NCBI GenBank assembly: GCA_905236275.1 | Contig: CAJOPI010000252.1 | Location: 1-24,886, forward strand | Source of the DNA: an uncultured Lachnospiraceae bacterium | GTDB taxonomy: Bacteria > Bacillota > Clostridia > Lachnospirales > Lachnospiraceae | Length of the DNA: 24,886 bases | Direction: 5' to 3' | In this document: positions 8,591 to 24,886 of the stretch, piece after piece | Layout: each line of letters begins with the position of its first letter | Numbering within the stretch: the first letter of the stretch is position 1 | Translations under genes and position numbers: made by a program | The notes under the pieces: model-generated | Database searches by the model: none | Seen by the model: only the letters and a program-made list of their open reading frames with translations | What the model was told of the DNA's origin: nothing

Positions 8591-10021
8591 TTACTTATTT
8601 ACGCAGTTTTCTTCTCCTACTGCATTTTCAACATCACTCTTGAACTGTGCCATTGCATCCTCAGGTGAAAGTGAAGCAGATGCTACATTTTCAACCATTG
8701 TCTGAATATATGTAGTTACCGTTGTGTACTGGTCGTTCTGCGGCCTGTATTCAGCAAACTCAAGGAAATCGGTTGCTTCCTGTACGAAAGGCTGTGCTGA
8801 ATATACTTCGTCTGTAGCAACATCGCTTCTTGTAGAAAGAACACCCTGAAGCTGTACTGCATTGAGATAATTATCATAGTTCATGCACCACTTAATGAAA
8901 TCCCATGCCGCATCTTTCTCATCGGAAAGAGAAGGGATTGCAAGTGTCCAGCCGCCTGACATTGTGATTTTGCCGGGAGCCTGTCCCTCTGATGTAGGCA
9001 TTTCCGCATAGCCGAGCTTTTCAGCATAATCAGCCCATGGAGCTGCACCTGTATCCTTGTAGTTACCTGTAATCCAGTAACCGTTAAGCATCATTGCAAG
9101 CTTTCCTTCAGGAAGATAATTATTTACAACATTGTCGCTCGACTCTGCATCATAAATAAGATCTGCTGTTGCATATTCCTTTGTAAAGAGCTCGTTTATG
9201 AAATTGAGTGTCTTCAGAATATTGTCTGATGAAGTAACCCACTTGCCGTCTTCGTATACCTTCTCGCCAGTACCGTAGAGAATCTCTTCGTAGGTCTGCA
9301 TTGAGGTTGCTTCTCCACTTATTGTACCTGCGTTGCACCAGAATGGAATTACATCAGGACACTTTTCTTTAATCTGTGCACACGCATCAAGTACGTCCTG
9401 CCATGATTTCGGCTCCCAGTCCGTCGGAAGACCTGCCTGCTCAAAGACATCCTTATTGAACCAGATACCACGAGAGTCAGCTGTGTAAGGTACTGCGTAA
9501 ACGCTTCCCTCAGCAGTTACACCGCTCTTTACATTTTCATAGAACTTTCCGCTTGTCCAGTCTTCCCATGAATTTACATAATCATCAAGATTTGTAAGAT
9601 TACCTGCTGCAACATCAGACGGAAGATAGAAGGTATCCTCGCAGACAATATCCGGAGCTGTATCCGCTGACTGTAAAGCAAGTGCAACCTTTGCAAAATA
9701 ATCACCCTCTGATGCTGTGATGTACTGGAAATCAAGTTCTATCTTATCCTTATCAGGATAAGTTTCATAAGCCTGACTGAACCACTGATAAAGCGGGTTC
9801 TGTTCGCCGTTACCCTCATCTCTCCATGTCATGGTAAGCTTGGTTTTAGTTCCATCAGATGCCGCACTTGCTGTATCTGACGTTTCTACGGTTCCTGCTG
9901 TTTCCGATGCAGTCTGTGAACCGGCATTTTCTGCTGCACCACCCTCAGACGAACTTCCACACGCTGCAAGTGAAAGAACCATTGTCATTGCCATAGCCAA
10001 CACCACTGCTTTCTTAATCAT
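8591..10021 (-). CDS. Extracellular sugar-binding lipoprotein of the CUT1 importer
   Basis: This is the substrate-capturing subunit of the ABC importer, anchored outside the membrane by lipid. The 476-residue protein starts with a lipoprotein signal peptide ending in the lipobox LAAC (Cys21), followed by a low-complexity Ser/Ala/Glu/Thr linker to about residue 58. The body has the cluster 1 solute-binding (MalE/UgpB-like) pattern, for example NGYWITGNY and GGWTLAIPSLSDEKDAAWDFIKW. A GGAGG lies about ten bases before the ATG. It is the first gene of the operon, behind a promoter with an overlapping palindrome. The presumed ligand, alpha-manno-oligosaccharides, is inferred from the GH125 and GH38 genes downstream. 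Confidence 0.93.
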   Translation of the reverse strand: MIKKAVVLAMAMTMVLSLAACGSSSEGGAAENAGSQTASETAGTVETSDTASAASDGTKTKLTMTWRDEGNGEQNPLYQWFSQAYETYPDKDKIELDFQYITASEGDYFAKVALALQSADTAPDIVCEDTFYLPSDVAAGNLTNLDDYVNSWEDWTSGKFYENVKSGVTAEGSVYAVPYTADSRGIWFNKDVFEQAGLPTDWEPKSWQDVLDACAQIKEKCPDVIPFWCNAGTISGEATSMQTYEEILYGTGEKVYEDGKWVTSSDNILKTLNFINELFTKEYATADLIYDAESSDNVVNNYLPEGKLAMMLNGYWITGNYKDTGAAPWADYAEKLGYAEMPTSEGQAPGKITMSGGWTLAIPSLSDEKDAAWDFIKWCMNYDNYLNAVQLQGVLSTRSDVATDEVYSAQPFVQEATDFLEFAEYRPQNDQYTTVTTYIQTMVENVASASLSPEDAMAQFKSDVENAVGEENCVNK

Positions 10022-10105
10022 TTATACCTTTCCTCCTCGAATAATATAAGTCAGATATGTCATTTACATACCCGTTTTATTTTTGCCTTTCGGCTTTGTT
10101 ACGAT

Positions 10106-10135
10106 AATGATATATAATTATTATATCATTTACAA
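10106..10135 (-). promoter_or_regulatory. Candidate promoter and overlapping operator of the mannoside operon
   Basis: On the minus strand, TTGTAA (10130-10135) and TATCAT (10107-10112) are 17 bases apart and could be -35 and -10 boxes. The spacer and -10 box coincide with a 25-bp inverted repeat at 10106-10130, with perfect nine-base arms (AATGATATA and TATATCATT) around seven bases. A palindrome there would let a bound repressor block RNA polymerase; the operon's own GntR-type regulator is the obvious candidate. Both boxes are imperfect and the DNA is AT-rich, so this is a proposal. Confidence 0.5.
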
Positions 10136-10173
10136 GTCTTTTTTGTGTATTCATAATTTTTCGTCATTGCAAA

Positions 10174-10209
10174 CAAAAATGTCAGCCCCTGTTTATCAGA
10201 AGCTGACAT
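10174..10209 (-). terminator. Rho-independent terminator of the rep gene
   Basis: In minus-strand RNA a 13-bp stem (10209-10197 with 10191-10179, two G-U pairs) and five-base loop are followed by UUUUUGUUU. It starts 27 bases after the rep stop codon and separates rep from the mannoside operon promoter. Confidence 0.88.
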
Positions 10210-10235
10210 ATCATTTTTATATCATTTAATCATTA

Positions 10236-11435
10236 TCAGTTTTTCCTGAGTTTCCTCTCCAGTTCATCATAATCATAGGTTCTTTCAGGAAAATCCCATC
10301 CTTCCATCCTTTTTACGGATGATTTTTTCACAGCAGGTTCGTATCCATTCTTTATCGCAGTCAGCATAAAGCCAACAAGATTTGATATCTGCGGACTGCT
10401 TTCAGCAACCTGATAGGCTTTTTCGATTTTACCCATATCATATCCTGCCGCTTCCGCTATCGCTTTAAATCCGTTAAAACTTATATCCTCTTTTATGATT
10501 CTCGACATTTTAAGGATAAAATCCATCTCATTTATCTCCGGCGCAGTCTGTATCTCATCTTCAATGATCATCTCTTTCTCTTCTTCAATTTTATCATTGA
10601 TAGTAAAAATAACTGCTGTTACCTTTCCCCCTTTTCCGGACCTGAAGGTATCATAACTGACAGATATTGAAGTATTCTCGTTTACCTCATCTATAGCCCT
10701 TGTCAGTACCCATTTCTTGAACTGTCCAAAGGTACCGTATTTCATCGCTTTTTTTTCTTTTGCAATTTTAAGGATTTTGTCATAATTAGGGCTCTCTTTC
10801 TTTGATTCGGCTGCGACTTCAGGATCACATTCGGGATCTATGATACCGAGCCTCAGATAAAGCTCCACAAGATTTATCTGCCACTCTATCTTTTTTGCCG
10901 GTGTCTTATGAATCGCCCTCTGATAATCCATGTTCGACTTGAGCATTTCATATAATTGTGAGGAATAGACAGAATTCAGCTTTACTGCCTCCTGAAGATT
11001 CAGTATTGTGAAATTGCTTTTAAGACCAATAAGCTCGTCCGTAAGGGAATTGTTAAAACGCAGTTTAAGCGTGCCGTTCTTATATTCTGCATCCTGTAAT
11101 ACATTTACAGCCCTAAATGCTTCCGATTCATCATCTTTAATAATAATACGCCAGTCAAGAAGACTTCTTCGCTTTCCGCTATTGTCCTTAACCGTTGCCT
11201 CAAAAACCGTTTCATATAATGAATTGGATTTTGTACCTATGATATTGCTTAAGGTTTTTACCGGAATAGTTGCCACTACAGTATTATCCTCAGTGCTTTT
11301 ATGTGCCTGGCCTATAGCTGCTGCAAAAAGCCTGAATGCCATAAGTGTTGCCTTTCCCCTCGCATTTATCAGGATATTCGATTTCTTATATGTAGTTTCC
11401 ATATATTCCGGAAACTGTTCCTTCTCTTTCCCCAT
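10236..11435 (-). CDS. Plasmid replication initiator, Rep_3 (RepB) family
   Basis: Rep_3 proteins bind iterons as monomers to open the origin, and usually repress their own promoter as dimers. The 399-residue protein starts with a typical stretch near 19-42 (NILINARGKATLMAFRLFAA) and carries the diagnostic NSVYSSQLYEMLKS at 154-167 in the first winged-helix domain, followed by YLRLGI and the second winged-helix region. The C-terminal 110 residues are a charged extension that I do not recognise. The ATG at 11435 follows AAGGA with an eight-base gap. The gene reads away from the iteron field at 11508-12243, as expected for an initiator beside its origin. The family suggests a plasmid, megaplasmid or chromid, not the main chromosome. 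Confidence 0.9.
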   Translation of the reverse strand: MGKEKEQFPEYMETTYKKSNILINARGKATLMAFRLFAAAIGQAHKSTEDNTVVATIPVKTLSNIIGTKSNSLYETVFEATVKDNSGKRRSLLDWRIIIKDDESEAFRAVNVLQDAEYKNGTLKLRFNNSLTDELIGLKSNFTILNLQEAVKLNSVYSSQLYEMLKSNMDYQRAIHKTPAKKIEWQINLVELYLRLGIIDPECDPEVAAESKKESPNYDKILKIAKEKKAMKYGTFGQFKKWVLTRAIDEVNENTSISVSYDTFRSGKGGKVTAVIFTINDKIEEEKEMIIEDEIQTAPEINEMDFILKMSRIIKEDISFNGFKAIAEAAGYDMGKIEKAYQVAESSPQISNLVGFMLTAIKNGYEPAVKKSSVKRMEGWDFPERTYDYDELERKLRKN

Positions 11436-11476
11436 TAGTTATTTCCTTCCCAGAAAACTCCCTAACTTCTAACTTA

Positions 11477-11504
11477 TTATTACACGCTGTCCTTTATTAT
11501 GCAA
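11477..11504 (-). promoter_or_regulatory. Candidate rep promoter
   Basis: On the minus strand TTGCAT (11499-11504) and TAATAA (11477-11482) are 16 bases apart, about 40 bases before the rep start codon. One iteron-like copy (11508-11528) lies directly upstream of the -35 box, which fits repression by the initiator itself. Confidence 0.5.
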
Positions 11505-11507
11505 GGA

Positions 11508-12243
11508 TTTTCCTATATTTCTCCATAAGTTACACTGTAGCTAATTTATCAGACTCTTCTTTCCCGTTTTTCACCATACGAAAATGAAGAAATCTAATGC
11601 TTATAATCCTACTTTTCATGAAATATAATGCACAATACAAGCTTAATCCGGAAGTTCTGGAGAAAAATGGGAAAGCGCAATGGGCAAACGTCAATGACGT
11701 TTGCTATAATTGATGGAGAAATTCGGGAAGAAAAACTACTGATGAAGCTTAAGTCTTGCCTTTTTTATAGTTTTCAGAGCTGTAGTTATGGTGAAAAACG
11801 GGAAATCTTTCCTGTTTTTCTACACAATTTTAAGCTATAGAAGTAAGAAAATGTTCATAAACTGACATGCTTCTTCGCTTCCACCACCATGAATAAAGAG
11901 AACTATGGAGAAATTCGGGAAGAATCACTTAATCTCCCAGTTTAAGCATTACTCAACTAAGAAAATTATGGAGATTTTCGGGAAGAGTTTCTTAAACTTA
12001 TAAAGATATTCGGGAACAGTTATGGAGAAATACGGGAAGAAATCATCAATGGATCATCTGCTTTCATTTCCCGAAAATCTCCATATTATTTCCCGAATTT
12101 CTAACATCTTTTACCGATTTTCTCCCTAAATTAGCTTCCCAATTTTCTCCATAACTTTAACCGGATTTCACCTCTTCCATTCCCGAATTACTCCACACCT
12201 TTTACCGTTTCTCTCCATGCCTCTTCCCATTTTTCTCCACATT
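11508..12243. other. Iteron-type replication origin
   Basis: This stretch holds about 17 diverged copies of a motif near TATGGAGAAATTCGGGAAG. Reverse copies lie at about 11508-11528 and 11558-11580. Copies in forward orientation lie at about 11654, 11711, 11785, 11902, 11966, 12001 (partial) and 12020. Another reverse copy at 11807-11828 faces the 11785 copy. Eight reverse copies then fill 12067-12243 at steps of 22, 21, 25, 22, 22, 22 and 22 bases, close to two helical turns. The best matches are at 11711, 11902 and 12020. Adjacent rep, parA and parB genes support the origin call. I see no TTATCCACA-type DnaA box. The AT-rich DNA after 12243 could be the unwinding region. Confidence 0.88.
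11684..11710 (+). promoter_or_regulatory. Perfect inverted repeat joined to an extended -10 motif inside the origin
   Basis: GCAAACGTC (11684-11692) and GACGTTTGC (11696-11704) form a perfect nine-base inverted repeat around AAT. TATAAT follows at once (11705-11710), and with the preceding TGC it makes an extended -10 element. It could be a plus-strand promoter with an operator, or a dimer-binding site for the initiator. No clear -35 box is present. Confidence 0.45.
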
Positions 12244-12498
12244 AACCTCTCTGGAATCCGTTAAATATGGCATTTTTACAGTTCCTAATAAAGAAAGAAA
12301 TTCAATTGTTGTTTAAAAACAAAAACAAGAATGAAGAACAACAACAGTGTGTTGTTGTATCTGTCTAAATGATTTTTTCATTATATTTATATGATGTCAA
12401 CTATCATAAACGTTCTCTCATTGTTTCTGTGATAGTTTTGTGATAGATAGAATGATAATATTGTCTCATAAAAATAAATCTTAAGGACGGGACAAAAT
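12244..12498. other. AT-rich flank of the origin with small inverted repeats
   Basis: No gene is visible here. The stretch is AT-rich and contains a hairpin ACAACAACA-GTG-TGTTGTTGT (12338-12358), TTGTTTAAAAACAA (12309-12322), and AACTATCA (12399-12406) facing TGATAGTT (12430-12437), with a second TGATAG shortly after. The last set lies before the small membrane protein gene and could control it. The region is also a plausible DNA unwinding element. Confidence 0.45.
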
Positions 12499-12735
12499 AT
12501 GAAAAATATGGTAGTTGATACAATGATAATAATTGGTGTTAGTTCAATGTTAATAGCCGGTGTGACAAATATATGTTCTAATCATATGAAAAAAAATTTA
12601 TATTTAGGGATGCTTCAGAACTGTACAAGAATTATAAATGAGTATAAAGATAAGACAGTCGGTAGTGAAATAGAAAACTATTTGGAAGACGAAATAGTAT
12701 CTGTTGTTGATAGTAATTTAGTTGCTTCAAAATAA
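12499..12735 (+). CDS. Small membrane protein of unknown function
   Basis: I do not recognise this 78-residue protein. A hydrophobic segment covers about residues 4-27 (VVDTMIIIGVSSMLIAG), followed by a charged, probably helical cytoplasmic part with many Glu, Lys and Asn, ending in SNLVASK. The ATG follows AAGGA with an 11-base gap. The gene lies alone between the iterons and the partition genes and has lower GC content than the sugar operon. Its place suggests a role in replicon maintenance or surface exclusion, or a small accessory gene, but nothing in the sequence proves any of these. Confidence 0.6.
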   Translation: MKNMVVDTMIIIGVSSMLIAGVTNICSNHMKKNLYLGMLQNCTRIINEYKDKTVGSEIENYLEDEIVSVVDSNLVASK

Positions 12736-12789
12736 AAAGATAGTCATAGTTTGCAGTCACGCAATTATAAAATTATTAAAGTTTCAGAA

Positions 12790-12893
12790 ATGATATCAGG
12801 GATTTTTATTCGCTTCACGCAGCTGTGCATACACGTTCACTAAGTATACCGAGTTCGCCATGTATTCGTAGCATCCCACAATCCTGATATCAT
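12790..12893. repeat. 104-bp inverted-repeat element (MITE-like or structured RNA)
   Basis: The ends are ATGATATCAGGGATT (12790-12804) and AATCCTGATATCAT (12880-12893), complementary over 14 bases with one bulged G. Inside, ATACACG (12829-12835) pairs with CATGTAT (12859-12865, one G-U on the minus strand), and around the centre ACTAAGTATACCGAGT (12839-12854) is an imperfect palindrome. The nested pairing gives a long cruciform or RNA hairpin. There is no transposase and no clear target-site duplication. It could be a miniature mobile or palindromic repeat, a non-coding RNA, or part of a centromere. Confidence 0.6.
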
Positions 12894-13205
12894 AGGATAT
12901 AAAAACTAAGAAAAATATTATTATATAAAATACTGCAAAATATATTAGTTAAGGGTTAATAGTATAATTTTTTGTTTGTAAAAAACATACAGCTTCCTTT
13001 TAATAATTACAAAAATCATATATTTAATAAATATACTGATGAAGATAGTTTATTTACTATAATGTAAAGTATAGATATCACTTAATTTCCACCTCATACT
13101 CTCTTATGGTCAGCATCAAAAGTACAAGCGATCGACTGATTTATAACTAAATTATTTCCCATAAAGATATTCACAAAATCCATATAATCTGTTATATTAA
13201 TCTCA
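12894..13205. other. AT-rich gene-free region before the partition genes
   Basis: I see no gene here. The DNA is strongly AT-rich, with short symmetric motifs such as TATATTTA-A-TAAATATA (13019-13035) and TTTAC-TATAAT-GTAAA. These may be chance in AT-rich DNA. It could be part of the partition site or carry promoters, but no feature is firm. Confidence 0.3.
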
Positions 13206-13263
13206 TCGGTATTGAAATACCGAGTATGTTAAATTTATCACAATGTCGGTATTGCAATATCGG
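13206..13263. promoter_or_regulatory. Paired palindromes upstream of parA: candidate parS/operator
   Basis: TCGGTATTGAAATACCGA (13206-13223) is a perfect eight-base-arm palindrome. A second copy, TCGGTATTGCAATATCGG (13246-13263), starts exactly 40 bases later with a degraded right arm. TTGAAA (13213-13218) and TATCAC (13236-13241) are 17 bases apart and could be the parA promoter, so both copies would bracket it. They end seven bases before the parA ribosome binding site. They are good candidates for the ParB-binding centromere or for a ParA/ParB operator. They do not resemble the chromosomal parS TGTTTCACGTGAAACA. Confidence 0.65.
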
Positions 13264-13280
13264 TCATTATTGGAGGAAAA

Positions 13281-14048
13281 ATGGCTTATAAAATTGTTGT
13301 AGCAAATCAAAAAGGTGGTGTTGCGAAAACAACCACTGCAGTAAATATTGCAGATGCACTCATGTACATGAATAACAGGGTTTTATTAATTGATCTTGAT
13401 CCGCAATCAAACAGCACATCGGTATTTACTGCAGGAGAAGTAATTAATGAAAACAATGTTGTAGATGTAGTTCTTGAAAGAAATTCCATTGAAGAATGCA
13501 TTTTACATACTGAGTTTGGAGACATAGTTCCAAGCAACAGAGAATTATCTGACTGGGACAGCAAATTGATACAGGCTCCAGGAGGAACTAAAAGGATAAA
13601 AAAAGCTGTCAAGATGATTGAGGACAATTATGATTACATAATAATGGATACGCCACCAAATGTTGGTGCATTTATGAGAAATGCCCTTTTTGCAGCAGAT
13701 GGAATCATTACTCCTCTTCAGGCGAAAAGATTCGCTTTGGACGGACTCTCAGATTTTCTTGATACAGTTTCAGCTCTCAAAGAAGACGGAAATGAGAATC
13801 TTGATATACTTGGTGTTCTTCTGACGATGTATGACCAACGCAATAAACAGGACAGGGAAGTTAAAGAAGCACTTCCGGCAATTGGTGAGAATCTAAACAT
13901 TCGAATATTTGATACAAAAATTCGCGTATGCCAGGATATAGAAAATGCAATTGCAAATTCTAAAAGCCTATTCCGCACAAAACCGAATTCAAATGGTGCA
14001 AATGATTATGCTGATTTAATTCTTGAAGTATTAAAAATAATTGAATGA
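13281..14048 (+). CDS. parA: ParA-type partition ATPase
   Basis: ParA proteins bind non-specific DNA when ATP-bound and drive replicon segregation with ParB. The 255-residue protein shows the deviant Walker A KGGVAKTT (11-18) with the signature lysine, Walker A-prime LLIDLDPQSN and Walker B IIMDTPPNVG. It lacks the N-terminal helix-turn-helix of type Ia plasmid ParA proteins, so it is the short type Ib or chromosomal-like kind; in such systems ParB usually does the repression. GGAGG stands five bases before the ATG. Ten bases separate it from parB. It reads divergently from rep across the origin. Confidence 0.95.
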   Translation: MAYKIVVANQKGGVAKTTTAVNIADALMYMNNRVLLIDLDPQSNSTSVFTAGEVINENNVVDVVLERNSIEECILHTEFGDIVPSNRELSDWDSKLIQAPGGTKRIKKAVKMIEDNYDYIIMDTPPNVGAFMRNALFAADGIITPLQAKRFALDGLSDFLDTVSALKEDGNENLDILGVLLTMYDQRNKQDREVKEALPAIGENLNIRIFDTKIRVCQDIENAIANSKSLFRTKPNSNGANDYADLILEVLKIIE

Positions 14049-14058
14049 GAGGAAATTT

Positions 14059-14988
14059 ATGAGCGCATTAGACAAGTTACAAGCGAAAACCAAAAAGCAG
14101 GCTACGCCCATTAAGAAAGTTGTAGATAATAATAAAGCAATAGAAAATAAGAAAACTGTAGCACCTGGACAAAAGGACAGTTCTCTTTCAAAAGATATAC
14201 GTGATATAGAAATATCCCTGATAGATACGGATGAACTTAATGAGGATCTGTATGGATATGAGGACCTTAATAAAATAGAACAGAGTTTTGAAGTTGTTGG
14301 AAATAAATCAATAATATATGTTTATAAAAGAGCAAATGGTCGTTTTTTATGTTATGCAGGTAATCAGAGACTGATTGTATCGAAAAAAAGAGGGGATAAA
14401 ACAATAACCTGTATTGTAGAGGGTGATGAACCATCTGAAGAAGAACGTATTGAACATCTGATATTTATGAATTCACAGAGAACCCCCAGACCTTACTATA
14501 CAGCAAGACAGTTATCCGAGTATGAGCGTCTGATCAGGAGAAAAGGGGAAAGAAACATAGTAGAGGCAATTCAGGAAAAATTTGGCTATAAGGAATCTGC
14601 CCAAAGAAAGTACAAACAAATCTTAAAACTGAGTCCTGAGCTGCAGAATCTTTTTAAAAGAGATGATGTTCCTTTTGTTGAACTTATCAGTCTCTGCAAT
14701 AAGATACCAGAGGAAAAATGTGAGGAATTTGCGTCCGCTTTTAGATTAAGATTTGCAGAAGAAGAGCCAAAAATTGATCAGATAAAAGAATTGTATAACA
14801 GTCTGTTTGCAGCAGAAGGGAAAGAAAAAGATAAAATTCTGAAAACCAACAAAATGTATAAGGAGCTTTTGTCTCTGCCATACTATACAGAGGAGATAAA
14901 AATTCCACCTAAAAAGAAAGACCTTATATATAAGCAGGCAAAATCAATGAGAGATTATCTTGACAGGATTATTGAGGCATGTAATTGA
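14059..14988 (+). CDS. parB: ParB-type centromere-binding partition protein
   Basis: ParB binds the centromere, spreads on DNA as a CTP-switched clamp, and stimulates ParA. The 309-residue protein has a basic N-terminus (about 1-40) suited to contacting ParA. It then has the ParB/Srx domain with GRFLCYAGNQRLIVSKK (GNQR at 101-104, the CTP-binding C-motif position) and NSQRTPRPY (138-146, in place of GERR). A helix-turn-helix region follows, near IVEAIQEKFGYKESAQRKY, then a charged C-terminal part. I chose the ATG at 14059, preceded by GAGAGG; a TTG at 14041 would overlap parA. No terminator follows the gene. Confidence 0.9.
   Translation: MSALDKLQAKTKKQATPIKKVVDNNKAIENKKTVAPGQKDSSLSKDIRDIEISLIDTDELNEDLYGYEDLNKIEQSFEVVGNKSIIYVYKRANGRFLCYAGNQRLIVSKKRGDKTITCIVEGDEPSEEERIEHLIFMNSQRTPRPYYTARQLSEYERLIRRKGERNIVEAIQEKFGYKESAQRKYKQILKLSPELQNLFKRDDVPFVELISLCNKIPEEKCEEFASAFRLRFAEEEPKIDQIKELYNSLFAAEGKEKDKILKTNKMYKELLSLPYYTEEIKIPPKKKDLIYKQAKSMRDYLDRIIEACN
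14960..14987 (+). promoter_or_regulatory. Possible weak promoter at the end of parB
   Basis: A perfect -35 consensus TTGACA lies at 14960-14965, inside the last codons of parB. At 16 bases, TAATTG (14982-14987) is a poor -10. If used, it would drive the microprotein and the ABC importer separately from parAB. Confidence 0.25.
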
Positions 14989-19506: not shown

Positions 19507-20285
19507 AGGATAAATTAATAATTGCTGATGGCATGAATAAGAGCTACCGAATAGGAAGGGGAAAGCTCCATCATGCTGTAAGGGATGTGAGTTTCGAAAT
19601 CTACAGGGGTGAAACTCTGGCATTGGTGGGTGAGTCCGGCTGCGGAAAAAGTACTCTTGCGAAACTGATTATGAGACTTATAGAGGCAGACAGTGGGGAG
19701 ATTTATTTTGACGGCAATAAAATATCCGCCCTGTCGGAAAAAGACTTCAGACCCTATCGCAGACGAATGCAGATGGTTTTTCAGGACCCGGCATCTTCAC
19801 TTAATCCGCGAATGAAGATAAAGGACATTATAGCGGAACCTGTAAGGACATGGCATCTTTATGAAAGTAAGGGGGAAGTAGAAGAGAGGGTAAAAGAGCT
19901 CCTTGATATGGTCGAACTAAAGGAAAGTGCGTTGGAACGTTTTCCTAATCAGTTTTCCGGCGGACAGAAGCAGCGTATTGCAATCGCACGTGCAATTGCT
20001 CTGTCGCCGGAGCTTCTGGTATGTGATGAGTCGGTTTCGGCACTTGACGTTTCCGTACAGGCACAGATTTTAAATCTCTTAAAAAGGCTGAAAAAAGAAC
20101 TGGGGCTTTCCTGTCTTTTTATCAGCCATGATCTGTCTGTGGTAAATTTCATCGCAGACAGGGTCTGCGTGATGAGAGATGGAGGAATATGCGAAGAAGG
20201 GAATACGGCTGATATTTATGCCGCTCCAAAGCATGAATATACAAAATACCTGCTTTCCTCTATTCCCCAAATACCTCAATACTGA
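19503..20285 (+). CDS. Peptide/nickel ABC transporter ATP-binding protein (DppF/NikE-like)
   Basis: This is the second ATPase. The 260-residue protein has Walker A GESGCGKS (43-50), signature FSGGQKQR, Walker B LLVCDESVSALD and the switch histidine in FISHD. The Walker B region has Ser where Pro is common, but the catalytic Glu is kept. It ends soon after the ATPase domain and lacks the Cys-containing tail of full-length OppF, a size more like NikE. Its last ten bases overlap the end of the convergent MATE gene, and no terminator separates them. Confidence 0.93.
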   Translation: MKDKLIIADGMNKSYRIGRGKLHHAVRDVSFEIYRGETLALVGESGCGKSTLAKLIMRLIEADSGEIYFDGNKISALSEKDFRPYRRRMQMVFQDPASSLNPRMKIKDIIAEPVRTWHLYESKGEVEERVKELLDMVELKESALERFPNQFSGGQKQRIAIARAIALSPELLVCDESVSALDVSVQAQILNLLKRLKKELGLSCLFISHDLSVVNFIADRVCVMRDGGICEEGNTADIYAAPKHEYTKYLLSSIPQIPQY

Positions 20286-21655
20286 TATTTCTTTTTCTTT
20301 ACCTTGAAGAAGAAAAATGTCATGATAACTGCCAGTATTTCAGAACCAACGATAGAATACCAAACGCCGTAATATGCCGCCTCATAGCTTGAGCCAAAGA
20401 GATGGAAGAAAATCACAGGCACTATGATAATTGTTGCAAGGTTGAACACGAGGGTTCGAACAAGGGAAATAAAGCCTGAAGAAAAACCATCATTGAGCGC
20501 AGTAAAAAAGCCGGAACCATAGGTTGGTATGCCCTTGAACAGGAAGGACAGGGTAAATATCGATAGACCGTCCACAGTAATCTGAAGAAGTGTTTCATCT
20601 CCATGAGCAAAGATAGATGCCAGAGGAGTTGCCAGCAGTTCAATAAGAATAGTAGCGATAATACTGAATCCAATCACAATGCTCAGGCTCTTTTTATGCA
20701 GATTTTTTAGGGCAACGGTATTTTTCGCACCATAGTTAAATGCGATAAGAGGTGCGACTCCGACAGTATATCCGCCTGCAAGGGCGCAGAAGATAGTGTT
20801 TACGTAACCGACAGTACCGAAGGCAGCAACACCCATATCACCAATCATATACAGGAATAGGGAATTGTAAACAATGTTGATAAAAGATGCTGACACGTTG
20901 GTAAAGAATTCTGAAATACCGTTTCCACAGGTTTGTGTAATATAACTCAGCCTGAATACGGGTTTTCTGAGTCTTAGACTGCTGTTATTTTTTGAGAAGA
21001 AATAAAGCAGAGGAATCAGACCACCGACAACAAGGCCACATGCGGTTGCGGTCGCAGCTCCCTCAACGGCTTTGATCGGGTCTCCGTTGGCAAAAACGCC
21101 AACAAGGAGAAAGTCTCCGCCAATATTGACGATACCGGCAAGCAGTGTATCAACCATTCCCATCTTTGGTATGCCTGCACATACAAAGAAACTCTGGAAA
21201 AAGAACTGGAGCATGAAAAGAGTTATCGCAGGAATTACAATATGAGCGTAGGCCATGCAGAATGGAATCATTTCCTCAGTCGTTCCCAAAGCACGCAGTA
21301 AGGGTTCCACAATAAACCACAAAACGACTGAAAGGGTAACGCCTATTCCTATCAACGTATAAGACACCAGTGAGAATATCCTGTTTGCTCCTTCAGGATC
21401 GCCTTCGCCCATGACCTTGGAAACCAGCGCGGTTCCTCCCGTACCAAACATGAAACCGATCGAAGCGACTACAAGAAAAATAGGTCCCACCTGGTTGATA
21501 GCAGCAAATGCGGTTGTTCCTCCGAAATTGGAAACAAACACGCCGTCAACAATCGAATAGACGGAAGAGATAAGCAATGCAATAATAGTGGGAATGGTAT
21601 ACAGGATCAGTTTTCCTATAGACAGGTCTTGCGCGGTTGAATTGTTTTCACTCAT
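20276..21655 (-). CDS. MATE-family efflux transporter
   Basis: MATE proteins export drugs or metabolites by sodium or proton antiport across the cytoplasmic membrane. The 459-residue protein has about 12 hydrophobic segments in two similar halves, starting with LSIGKLILYTIPTIIALLISSVYSIVD, and includes the family-typical FVSNFGGTTAFAAINQVGPIF and FMFGTGGTALVSK. It resembles the MepA/DinF-like clostridial group. The frame stays open to an ATG at 21715, but a TATAAT box covers exactly that position and GAGGAG lies nine bases before the ATG at 21655, so the shorter start is preferred. The substrate is unknown. Confidence 0.92.
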   Translation of the reverse strand: MSENNSTAQDLSIGKLILYTIPTIIALLISSVYSIVDGVFVSNFGGTTAFAAINQVGPIFLVVASIGFMFGTGGTALVSKVMGEGDPEGANRIFSLVSYTLIGIGVTLSVVLWFIVEPLLRALGTTEEMIPFCMAYAHIVIPAITLFMLQFFFQSFFVCAGIPKMGMVDTLLAGIVNIGGDFLLVGVFANGDPIKAVEGAATATACGLVVGGLIPLLYFFSKNNSSLRLRKPVFRLSYITQTCGNGISEFFTNVSASFINIVYNSLFLYMIGDMGVAAFGTVGYVNTIFCALAGGYTVGVAPLIAFNYGAKNTVALKNLHKKSLSIVIGFSIIATILIELLATPLASIFAHGDETLLQITVDGLSIFTLSFLFKGIPTYGSGFFTALNDGFSSGFISLVRTLVFNLATIIIVPVIFFHLFGSSYEAAYYGVWYSIVGSEILAVIMTFFFFKVKKKKYQY

Positions 21656-21714
21656 TTTAGCCAGCTCCTCGTTGTTTCTTGACATTAATCGGTAAAAATT
21701 GCAATTATGCAACA

Positions 21715-21743
21715 ATTATAACATATGGCTGTTGAAAATCCAA
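21715..21743 (-). promoter_or_regulatory. Promoter of the MATE gene
   Basis: On the minus strand TTGGAT (21738-21743) and a perfect TATAAT (21715-21720) are 17 bases apart. The predicted start is near 21708, about 50 bases before the start codon. An inverted repeat TGGTAA-AAA-TTACCA (21749-21763) lies just upstream of the -35 box. The word GGTAAAAATT occurs both there (21750-21759) and in the leader (21691-21700). Confidence 0.65.
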
Positions 21744-21897: not shown

Positions 21898-24886
21898 TTA
21901 TTTTTCTTTATAATTCAGTACTTCGTCGAAGATATCACTGTCAGCCTTTATCCTGCTTTCATTTCCTGCCGTTACTAATGCAGAATTAGCATAAATCTTC
22001 CTTAGTTCAGCGACTGCCTTCTCTTTTAGCCCGACTGACGTATTCTTTATATCATTTACCATTTCGACATAATTATTTTCGTCAATCCCATAGATATTCC
22101 TGTTTATCGCCGACATACTTTCACTCCATAAGCCATATATCGACGTGGCGTTACCATAAGCCTTCAGTGCATATCCCTGAAATTCATCTTCTGCAAACTC
22201 AGCAGTTTCCAGATAGTCCGTAATTGATGAGAGCGCATTTGCGGAGTCCTTTACGTTCGGGTCTGAATAAGAATAGTTTAATATAAATGCATTTCTTGCG
22301 CTCATCCGGCTTCCGGCACTGTATGCTCCCATCTGGAATCTTAATTTTGGAATAGTATACTTATCACTTGCGGCATAGATGAAAGGAATGTACGATCCCT
22401 TGAATCTATCGTTTTTGTAGGTGCTTCCCATAAGATAACTGTAATTTTGTGAAGCCTCAACGATGAAAGCAGTTTTTAATGCCGTTACCGGAAGCTCGTA
22501 GCTTTCATAGCTCGCCTCTTTTTCGGATAAAGTATCAAGCTTTTTTCCTGCGGCTGACATTATGCTGTCGGTATCCTTTTTATAAGCTGCCAGCCCGAAA
22601 ATAAGATCAGACTTTGTGAATGCTTTCTTTCTTGCATTATCGAAATCATCTATATATTTGTCAAAAGCCGAATCAGTTTTTTCGATATCTGAAGCAATTT
22701 GAGAAATATAATGGTAATAATCCTGACCACTGCAATCATGCAAAAGTTTGTAAGTATCTGACATAATAGAACCGCTTGCGGCATAAGCATAATTACGTGC
22801 AAGTTCATTAGGGTCAGTCCTGCTCAGGTCAAAGCTTTCAGCATCTCTTGAAATCACATAAGCCATATCTTCCATATCCGAGAGGTCGGTTTCAGTAAGT
22901 ATATGGATAATAAGCTCAAGACTCTTCTCAAAATCAGCCGACAGACCTTTCCAGCTTACCAAAAGCTTTGGCTCATGGTCATCACCGGCATCTTCACCGG
23001 GATAAACCATACTTGTTTCGAAGTCATAAAGATATTTGCTTTCAAGTATATCAAGTTCTTCCGTACTGTATTTTGTGGTTCTGGTTTCAAGAAGCAGATT
23101 GAGATAAGTATTAAGTGCCATAATCTCATCTTTTGACATTCCTGAAAGGTCAAAGGAAATTTCATAAGCAGCCGCTTTTTCTGCGTCAACATTTCCCTTA
23201 TAAAATCTTATTCCGTTTATTTCCTCAACGGTAACATCAGGCGTTGAGAACTTCGGAAGCTCTGAAAGCTCTATAAGAAAATCGTTATTAGGCATTTCAG
23301 TCTCGTTCCATTCATTAAACTCCTTCGTTTCCCGGACCAGAGCCTTTATCTCCTCATCAGTCATTTTCTCTTTCATATCAGACAGATATTTTGCCAGTTT
23401 TTCATCGTGTTCTTCTGCCAATCCCGGTTTAGGAATGTTCGCAATCAGGGCACTGCGTCCGGGTGTCTTCATATTGTTCGCGAGTTCCTTGATCACTGTC
23501 TGGTCTTTGTCTGCCGAAAGCTCTTTCAAAGTATCTTCAAAAACAGAATAATAATCCAGTCTGCCTCTTGCTGACCAGAATACTCCCATTGTCTGGGATA
23601 AATTTATACCTGTATTCGTATTGTTCCTCATAAAGAGTGTATCTAACTCATCTTCTTTTAGAACACTCTCCAGTAGTTCCTGCGAAAAGCCATTCTCTGC
23701 AATTTCATTTATGGTATAGTCCGCAAGATCCTTCAAGGACTGCATCTGATCCTCATTTGCATAATCCATTTTAAAAAGCAGGAAGGGTTTTGCATATTCC
23801 ATGCTCATTGTTACCGATACCGGATTCTTAATCTTCTCTTCCAGCAGTCTTTTATTCATACAGGAAGATGACCTGTTTAAAACGGCTGCAATGATGCTCC
23901 ATTTTACCATGCTTTCAAAGTCGTCCTTCTGCATATCGATTGCATAATATATCTGACCGTTGTTCTCAACCGCATCACCCTCATAAGCCGGAGAATATTT
24001 TACTTCTTTTACATATCCATCTTCTGTGATAAGGTCCTGATATTCAAGCAGGTCAGTTTTGCCTGTATCATATTTTGAAAGATACTCTTTATCTAAAAAA
24101 TCAAGGAATTTCTCAATGTCTAAATTTCCATATAATGTAATAAGGCTGTTGTCAAAATGATAGCATCTGTTGTAGGTTTCGATTGTATGTTCATACGTAA
24201 GATCTTCATAGTTATGCTCTGCTCTTCCGGTAGTATTTGAAGCGTACTCTCCCGGGTAGAGGGAGTCCAAAAGATTGTTCATGCCGTCATCATCGGCATC
24301 TGTCAGATATCCCATATCTTCGGCATATACCGTTCCATTGATATTTATATCTGAATTTTCATCTTCAAGTTCATATCTTAATGCTTCTCTCTTAAAATAG
24401 TTTTCATTTTTGAGAATGTCCGGTTTTACCATACAGCTCATATATACGTCCATCAGTTTCAGCAGTTGTTTCTGACTGTATGATGAAACGGGATACATTG
24501 TTGCTGTCGGATAAGTAAAAGCATTTACGAAAGTTGAATAGGATTTATTATTTATGTCGAAAAACAGGTCGTATGCCGGATATTTTTCGGATGAAGCAAT
24601 TATGGCATGTTCAAAGACATGATTAGTATCCGTTTCATCAACAACGGGAGTCTTGTAGGCAATGCAGAAAGAACATTCATGATCAGTATTCTTTATATAT
24701 ACCAGTTCCGCACCGCTTTTTTCATGCTTATAAAAGCATATATCCGAATTTAGGAGCTTGTTGTTTTCTACTTTTTCAAGCTTAAACCCGCTGTAGCTGC
24801 TGCCGGCATTAAGAGCAGAGTTCCTGCTTTCACCCGTATCAGGAGCAGAGGCTTCGCTTTCACCGGCATCAGGAGCAGAAGCTTCA
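21898..24886 (-). CDS. M16C zinc metalloprotease (PreP-like), cut by the window edge at its N-terminus
   Basis: M16C enzymes are large clam-shaped zinc peptidases that degrade peptides. The frame stays open beyond the ATG at 24498 to the window edge, giving about 995 visible residues. The inverted zinc motif HxxEH reads HVFEH (24607-24621), and a Glu 96 residues later in NGTVYAED (the spacing of the third zinc ligand in plant PreP) completes the site, so it should be active. Before the catalytic part lies a linker of three ten-residue repeats rich in Glu, Ala, Ser, Pro and Gly, then SSYSGFKLEKVENNKL. Such a linker suggests a surface-anchored or secreted protein whose signal peptide lies outside the window. 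Nutritional peptide breakdown near a peptide importer is plausible inference. Confidence 0.88.
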   Translation of the reverse strand, partial: EASAPDAGESEASAPDTGESRNSALNAGSSYSGFKLEKVENNKLLNSDICFYKHEKSGAELVYIKNTDHECSFCIAYKTPVVDETDTNHVFEHAIIASSEKYPAYDLFFDINNKSYSTFVNAFTYPTATMYPVSSYSQKQLLKLMDVYMSCMVKPDILKNENYFKREALRYELEDENSDININGTVYAEDMGYLTDADDDGMNNLLDSLYPGEYASNTTGRAEHNYEDLTYEHTIETYNRCYHFDNSLITLYGNLDIEKFLDFLDKEYLSKYDTGKTDLLEYQDLITEDGYVKEVKYSPAYEGDAVENNGQIYYAIDMQKDDFESMVKWSIIAAVLNRSSSCMNKRLLEEKIKNPVSVTMSMEYAKPFLLFKMDYANEDQMQSLKDLADYTINEIAENGFSQELLESVLKEDELDTLFMRNNTNTGINLSQTMGVFWSARGRLDYYSVFEDTLKELSADKDQTVIKELANNMKTPGRSALIANIPKPGLAEEHDEKLAKYLSDMKEKMTDEEIKALVRETKEFNEWNETEMPNNDFLIELSELPKFSTPDVTVEEINGIRFYKGNVDAEKAAAYEISFDLSGMSKDEIMALNTYLNLLLETRTTKYSTEELDILESKYLYDFETSMVYPGEDAGDDHEPKLLVSWKGLSADFEKSLELIIHILTETDLSDMEDMAYVISRDAESFDLSRTDPNELARNYAYAASGSIMSDTYKLLHDCSGQDYYHYISQIASDIEKTDSAFDKYIDDFDNARKKAFTKSDLIFGLAAYKKDTDSIMSAAGKKLDTLSEKEASYESYELPVTALKTAFIVEASQNYSYLMGSTYKNDRFKGSYIPFIYAASDKYTIPKLRFQMGAYSAGSRMSARNAFILNYSYSDPNVKDSANALSSITDYLETAEFAEDEFQGYALKAYGNATSIYGLWSESMSAINRNIYGIDENNYVEMVNDIKNTSVGLKEKAVAELRKIYANSALVTAGNESRIKADSDIFDEVLNYKEK
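24796..24885 (-). repeat. Tandem 30-bp repeat in the protease linker
   Basis: Three in-frame 30-base units (24856-24885, 24826-24855 and a degenerate 24796-24825) encode EASAPDAGES, EASAPDTGES and RNSALNAGSS. More copies may lie beyond the edge. Such repeats often vary in number between strains. Confidence 0.75.

Follow-up and report, generated by a model that had tools for sequence, protein, structure and literature searches.

A very probable Rep_3 iteron origin with opposed arms on a Lachnospiraceae contig

The window analysed here, the whole stretch of 24,886 nucleotides, is the complete contig C252 of an uncultured Lachnospiraceae bacterium, whose assembly comprises 2.51 Mb in 453 contigs and is 81.5% complete. 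It carries an iteron field flanked by a gene for a Rep_3 initiator (10236–11435, minus strand) and a parA/parB-like pair (13281–14988, plus strand). Judged from the translations of open reading frames, there are also long runs of genes of sugar-uptake and peptide-transport type. The features are listed below; iteron positions come from a position weight matrix (PWM) scan, and each start is followed by its strand.

10236–11435, minus strand: rep, Rep_3 initiator of 399 aa with two winged-helix domains and a C-terminal tail (residues 384–399); Pfam Rep3_N 5.5e-22, Rep3_C 1.1e-11
11447–11578, minus strand: left part, rep-proximal iterons in canonical orientation (11447−, 11510−, 11561−), in the rep leader and presumed promoter region
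11656–12038, plus strand: left part, opposed (putative control) arm of seven inverted iterons (11656+, 11712+, 11787+, 11904+, 11967+, 11999+, 12021+)
11809–11826, minus strand: left part, single canonical copy within the opposed arm (11809−)
12068–12241, minus strand: right part, putative origin core (iterons 12224−, 12202−, 12180−, 12158− (degenerate), 12136−, a 25-bp step, then 12111−, 12090−, 12068−)
12242–12680, no strand: AT-rich flank, presumed DNA unwinding region, 23–29% G+C in 120-bp windows
12305–12358, no strand: distal element common to many relatives, with AACAACAATT ... GTTGTTGTT boxes (rep-sense order, reversed on the plus strand) and an inverted repeat at 12338–12358
13207–13222 and 13247–13262, no strand: two similar 16-bp palindromic sites before parA, the second imperfect, with starts 40 bp apart
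13281–14048, plus strand: parA-type partition ATPase; Pfam AAA_31 2.9e-52, CbiA
14041–14988, plus strand: ParB-like protein; PHROG 4715 'ParB-like partition protein' 5.2e-6

The ParB-like protein had no match in Pfam or NCBIfam, and the palindromic pair at 13207–13262 is probably the par operator or centromere. Between the field and parA lies a 78-aa open frame (12499–12735) with a hydrophobic N-terminus and no PHROG match. An Rfam scan of 9800–13400 gave no match, nor did a BLAST search of the iteron field against plasmids.

The repeats are copies of an 18-bp motif, TATGGAGAAAWTCGGGAA, of which the position-weight scan recovered 19 at 11447–12241. A preliminary description of this DNA had counted about 17 copies in 11508–12243, and the count was borne out: 17 copies there score above 10 bits, compared to a mean of 0.12 and never more than 2 in 60 Markov shuffles. 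An eighteenth copy (11447, 16.9 bits) lies in the rep leader, just beyond those bounds, and a nineteenth (12158, 6.7 bits) is very degenerate and occupies the sole empty slot of the right arm, in which the iteron at 12090 is also weak (13.3 bits). Other parts of the window have seven single matches above 10 bits (11.0–14.0 bits), so that the weakest field copies, taken one by one, would be inconspicuous. The preliminary description had named scatter across the genome as a point against an origin. In the 2.51-Mb, 81.5% complete assembly the motif is concentrated in the field, which has every one of the 11 matches with no more than one mismatch and 3 of the 14 with two mismatches, the other 11 lying singly on other contigs. 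An earlier motif run at a lower threshold gave 20 window copies, including an isolated 11-bit match outside the field, as well as meaningless motifs in GC-rich loci, and was superseded.

With + denoting the canonical orientation and the order taken from core to rep, the field runs ++++++++----+---+++, that is, eight canonical copies, inverted blocks of four and three split by one canonical copy, and three canonical copies at rep. The eight copies on the right are all in reverse, near a 22-bp pitch (steps of 22, 21, 25, 22, 22, 22 and 22, in blocks of five and three), and the two arms face each other across 12039–12067, both as first described. The left part had been called mostly forward; seven of its copies are, and four are in reverse (three of those within 11508–12243). 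The clustering by orientation is a modest excess over chance, with five runs among the 19 copies and equally few in 1.3% of permutations. Mean scores are 25.1 bits for the inverted copies, 20.4 for the core and 21.2 for the other four, using a matrix built from these same sites.

The adjoining gene confirms the proposed Rep_3 family: its Rep3_N and Rep3_C scores exceed the curated cut-offs, giving the two winged-helix domains (WH1 and WH2) of Rep_3 initiators, and profile matches include the structures of pi (5.1e-9) and RepE (2e-8) besides spurious matches to designed repeat proteins. Its named relatives are chiefly from Butyrivibrio, including RepB proteins of B. proteoclasticus B316 and the B. 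fibrisolvens plasmid pNP243. As in other Rep_3 iteron replicons, repeats of about 17–22 bp adjoin rep, partly at two-turn pitch, and an AT-rich region lies beside them. A DnaA box is common among such replicons but does not define them, so we keep the assignment though none stands out here (7 one-mismatch matches to the standard box in the window compared to 7.2 by chance).

The AT-rich flank beyond the core belongs to a wider pattern, in that most distal flanks of relatives are likewise AT-rich. The element at 12305–12358 was recognised from an 8-mer count, an alignment of selected loci and a palindrome scan. The 8-mer ACAACAAC is present in 15 of 57 distal flanks compared to 0.9 expected, and GTTGTT ... 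AACAACAATT boxes are recognisable in form and order in the window, L003, L009, L035, L040, L048, L053, L066 and L109, in an alignment that took in 19 selected loci. This GTTGTT/AACAAC element is common but not universal, L005, L037 and L024 being among the loci that show little of the GTTGTT boxes. Because the shared AT-rich element adjoins the core end, we read the right arm as the opening arm, and the core end would be the probable opening end. In many Butyrivibrio secondary replicons, the element marks where opening probably takes place.

Relatives of the window's Rep were gathered from 145, 48 and 397 whole genomes (overlapping sets with matches in 13, 8 and 24, the window's genome in each), from 64 loci of GTDB contigs, from two IMG/VR contigs and from plasmid records; in genome contigs a single-protein scan gave nothing and an alignment-based scan worked. 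Tried as a probe for 18 other loci (L002–L019), the window's own motif returned isolated matches of 11.7–13.5 bits only, so each locus needed its own. Motifs were therefore sought de novo in the upstream stretch of each rep (at most 1,300 bp); every locus had two shuffled controls and passed with at least 9 copies and twice the better of the two shuffles. We set up 92 loci, 89 of which had a candidate motif; 81 passed the control, 5 duplicates were taken out and 76 arrays were counted (window included), a set that still includes some near-copies such as L005/L006. The usual Butyrivibrio motif is GGTGAnnAAAAAGGGAA, canonical on the rep-sense strand. Canonical direction is poorly decided by motif similarity in several divergent loci (e.g., L003, L009, L038 and L023), and for this reason the tallies use minority-strand counts.

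The 76 arrays hold 9–30 copies, with a median of 16.5. Inverted copies are lacking in 39 of them, number one or two in 18 and at least three in 19, including the window. The preliminary description had taken a small number of copies, all oriented alike, as usual for simple iteron plasmids; these figures do not support that, and neither do F and P1, whose control arrays are wholly or mostly inverted to the origin array. At least three copies at 22-bp pitch are found in 40 of the 76 arrays. Nine relatives show four or five copies at 22 bp, then a step of 34–36 bp, then another 22-bp block; among the 15 commonest classes, this step to a second block is the most frequent (9 loci), and one of 57–58 bp occurs in 6. 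The window's 25-bp step is about one helical turn shorter than the 35-bp form of the relatives.

Core copies fit the leave-one-out consensus of their family worse than the rest do in 16 of 18 loci, by a mean of 3.1 bits, in a comparison of 25 loci from which 7 without a recognised core were left out; in 6 of the 18 the recognised core is two copies only, and both exceptions are among those six. From these scores, weaker core copies would fit an order in which Rep occupies the control sites first and the core last. In the window, the seven inverted copies keep a common helical phase, with R 0.86 at 10.7 bp and P 0.024 in a jitter control, and the phase of the canonical copies is not significant (P 0.11 for all 12, P 0.07 for the 4 outside the core). 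Across the relatives, non-core spacings cluster near whole helical turns in a sample of 659 from related loci, which are not independent draws, with same-strand steps peaking at 31–32, 42–44 and 53–54 bp (R 0.42 at 10.75 bp). The best-fitting period is 11.5–11.75 bp, not 10.5, because the 31–32 and 42–44 bp classes dominate.

Arrays in which a 22-bp block is followed towards rep by at least three opposite copies are found in the window, L009, L109, L091 and L098; L009 has 11 copies and then 19 inverted ones mostly at 40–44 bp, and L109 has 8 + 3. L107 has a run of 11 at 31–33 bp opposite to irregular far copies, and L023, L095 and L096 are of mixed orientation in other ways. The alternating-sign arrays L038, L075, L082 and L019 possibly have partly palindromic motifs and were excluded as evidence of arms. 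Two of the loci, L109 and L110, are IMG/VR contigs of 124–126 kb with related Reps and opposed iterons in an 8 + 3 arrangement; they could be phage-plasmids, or else megaplasmids that were misfiled. On the B. proteoclasticus plasmid pCY186 (L020), a related Rep directly follows genes for an ATP-binding protein, a DnaB helicase and a PolC-type polymerase, and the stretches scanned around it held no comparable iteron array.

When the label of at least three inverted copies (19 rows) is placed on a 76-row Rep tree by a quick method, with several long branches in the tree, it changes 10 times, 6 of them forced by well-supported branches, and it is clustered compared to a shuffle average of 17.1 changes. 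The window's own Rep clade has five rows (SH-aLRT 99), and no array among the other four has more than one inverted copy. The window's arm therefore probably turned within this clade, as a local change, and opposed arms are not needed for function in the family.

At the rep end of the field, the three canonical iterons are presumed autoregulation sites. A promoter-like pair at 11525–11496 overlaps iteron 11510, and promoter-like matches around the rep-proximal iterons are at chance level (9 found, 10.6 expected). Farther in, 11684–11704 (GCAAACGTCA-A-TGACGTTTGC) is the window's only inverted repeat whose 10-bp arms match perfectly and whose loop is no longer than 3. A rightward promoter-like pair (TGGGCA; TATAAT at 11705–11710), which would transcribe across the opposed arm, has this repeat in its spacer; no counterpart of the repeat was found in the relatives' arrays.

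A stray match to Rep in its own genome led us to a host protein of 380 residues with a PF07261 domain (Firmicutes DnaB/DnaD type), whose gene is directly upstream of one for an IstB/DnaC-like ATPase (PF01695) that we take for a DnaI-type loader. The final 16 residues (ERTYDYDELERKLRKN) are identical in Rep (10239–10286) and in this DnaB-type adaptor (L002:1546–1593). At the DNA level, 7 of 17 codons and 40 of 51 bases are the same; the differences take in the stop codon and 9 of the 16 tail codons. As the codons have diverged under identical residues, recent copying does not explain the match; selection appears to have preserved it, which suggests a docking tail on Rep. In B. subtilis, the C-terminal tail of DnaB binds the C-terminal domain of DnaI, according to the accessible text of PMC13326638. 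In RepA_N plasmids, according to the accessible text of PMC5703833, conservation of the C-terminal domain does not extend beyond the genus, and the domain may have a role specific to the host. We found no description of such a tail on Rep_3 proteins in titles and abstract openings of the open PMC literature.

Among 44 Rep-host pairs, the tail is present in 33 Reps and absent in 11, by a score cut-off of our choosing. The own host's tail is the best match, ties counted, for 13 of the 33. This includes all six tested pairs of the window's genus, in which one tail is common to two hosts (G046, a seventh genome, gave no host match and is outside the tally); in other pairs the own host ranks far down, to 24th. 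With Rep-body similarity held fixed, Rep-tail and host-tail similarity correlate (partial r 0.38; 0 of 2000 permutations). Fixing host-body similarity as well leaves a weak correlation of 0.18 (not permuted), so shared descent explains part of the tail match. It is tempting to speculate that a host-matched tail, which suggests a simple route for plasmids to take over the host's helicase loader, might also bear on host range.

The preliminary description had proposed looking for a GC skew switch at the field. The sign does change near 12.5 kb, but the change is largely confounded with divergent transcription, and we dropped GC skew alone as evidence of an origin. Of the 14 co-oriented genes, 13 have a positive third-position skew on the sense strand; of the three genes head-on to the presumed forks (254–1183, 20276–21715 and 21898–24498), two have a skew that goes with the replichore, not the gene. 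This pattern mildly supports an origin at the field. In the accessible text of the B. fibrisolvens genome paper (PMC6249431), a chromid origin is placed by GC skew, near repA, parB and hbs. The chromid descriptions in the accessible parts of that paper and of the B. proteoclasticus paper (PMC2914790) do not mention iterons, and our search of the open PMC literature found no paper pairing 'Butyrivibrio' with 'iteron'.

Taken together, the results make it very probable that the field is an iteron origin, in which one arm is the origin arm and the other, opposed to it, a control arm, much like a start and a brake. We think it likely that 11447–12680 is the Rep_3 iteron origin of a Lachnospiraceae secondary replicon or plasmid, apparently from a gut or rumen bacterium, with the right arm as core and the left arm as control array. 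Separate opening and control arrays, which the preliminary description had offered as one possibility, would thus be the best reading. The sequence itself gives the sites with their orientation, pitch and conservation, the family of Rep and the identity of the tails; from these we infer Rep binding, opening, looping, autorepression and helicase recruitment in the following form. Rep monomers would fill the eight canonical core iterons, and the AT-rich GTTGTT/AACAAC region (12242–12680) would open. The left arm, with its better consensus matches, helical phase and irregular steps, would take up Rep first and could form, with the core, Rep-bridged loops in one molecule or pairs between molecules (handcuffing), which would block opening until growth dilutes them. 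The copies adjoining rep would repress rep, and the Rep tail would dock onto the host's DnaI-type loader for helicase loading. More tentatively, the Lachnospiraceae Rep_3 replicons may form a series in which core pitch and direction are kept and the control array has turned several times. In the window the opposed array would be placed to let control and core sites, 47–568 bp apart, fold together, and the host-matched tail would recruit the DnaI-type loader directly, skipping DnaA-DnaD-DnaB.

The same origin could instead be indifferent to the orientation of the left copies, which would then act by Rep titration only, the arm being a local inversion or duplication with no role in looping. The arrays of the nearest relatives, one-way or nearly so, fit this, as do the inverted copies in other loci, often scattered rather than forming one arm and following no shared plan in several lineages. 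Over 40 nt including flanks, four of the window's seven inverted copies have 63–80% similarity to a reference copy, as after local duplication. We nevertheless consider it somewhat unlikely: inverted runs between the 22-bp block and rep recur in separate lineages (L009, L091, L098 and L109), and the control arrays of F and P1 are inverted to their origin arrays.

That the replicon is an inactive remnant integrated in the chromosome seems improbable. The long transport-gene runs would fit a chromosomal setting, and this is one contig of an incomplete assembly; yet rep, parA and the parB-like gene all have open frames, Rep and its host still share an identical tail though the codons have diverged, and named relatives are on megaplasmids such as pCY360 and pNP243. 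It is very improbable that the repeats are the centromere of the ParAB system and not an origin. The start of parA is about 1.0 kb from the field, but the repeats abut rep, not parA, which has its own palindromic pair, and an array above control lies upstream of related Reps in 81 of the 89 loci with a candidate motif. Least credible of all are twin origins, one per arm, as the arms of seven and eight copies might suggest, since the regular 22-bp pitch and the shared AT-rich element occur in the right arm only and the left arm is followed by rep.

The preferred reading, of a core and an opposed control arm, bears on a general issue. Titration, pairing of molecules and looping within a molecule have been argued over as means of iteron control from few, mostly proteobacterial, plasmids. 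With 76 arrays on a common core plan and control sites that are one-way, mixed or opposed, the effect of orientation becomes readable and testable.

The closest resemblances are to F and P1. In F (L119), which has a Rep_3-type initiator (RepE), our scan placed ori2 iterons at 12256, 12277, 12310 and 12332 (plus strand), at 21–22 bp with one 33-bp step, and incC iterons at 13204, 13226, 13259, 13350 and 13433, all on the minus strand and thus five of five inverted to ori2, as is the window's arm to its core. Unlike the window, F has incC downstream of repE, with five copies to four in ori2, whereas here seven copies face eight and the arm lies between rep and the core. In P1 (L120), oriR has five iterons (minus strand) at 21–22 bp, and incA has six on the plus strand and three on the minus strand at steps of 30–41 bp, so that six of nine are inverted to the origin; this control array, too, lies downstream of its rep gene, repA. 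At the P1 origin the record has an annotated DnaA site, and the window has none above chance. The Butyrivibrio motif matches those of F (TGTGACAAAT..CCC) and P1 (ATGTGTGCTGGAGGGAAA) in layout and direction: the TGTGA half site of F is directed relative to rep as the Butyrivibrio GGTGA is, and the P1 motif, GTG...GGGAA, is alike in layout.

RepFIB also has two iteron sets with origin and control roles, for which handcuffing is proposed, but its sets lie on either side of rep (PMC11983097). The accessible text of that paper assigns the upstream iterons to the origin and the downstream ones to control, favours a Rep sandwich within or between molecules, and models FIA and FIB with the same pairing of origin and control iterons, within or between molecules. 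In the FIB replicon of F, a rougher count of ours has 6 of 7 upstream copies in one direction and 5 of 7 downstream copies in the other. Handcuffing is further described, in the text available, for pPS10 (PMC4857107) and V. cholerae chromosome 2 (PMC6090056). The ori2 of the latter resembles the window in having an origin array with an adjacent inhibitory region, under titration and handcuffing control, but uses a different initiator, RctB, and two kinds of site, whereas the window has one motif in both arms.

The Rep_3 replicons of Butyrivibrio and other Lachnospiraceae (L003–L110; pCY360, pNP243) share with the window a homologous Rep, 9–30 iterons upstream of rep and, often, a 22-bp block at the far end with the AT-rich GTTGTT element. 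The majority run one way or nearly one way, 57 of 76 having two inverted copies or fewer, and pCY360 (22 iterons) and pNP243 (24) have three scattered inverted copies each, whereas the window has 7 inverted copies among its 19, arranged as two adjoining blocks. In F and P1 an opposed control array is the classical arrangement, and the initial surprise at finding one here rested on too narrow a picture of iteron plasmids. Like theirs, the window's control iterons are inverted to the origin iterons; unlike theirs, they lie upstream of rep, and we therefore describe the window as probably working like the F/P1 type but do not file it as one. The logic is known from F and P1, and the window is a new variant in its layout: what is unusual is the place of the opposed array, adjoining the core between it and rep rather than downstream of rep.
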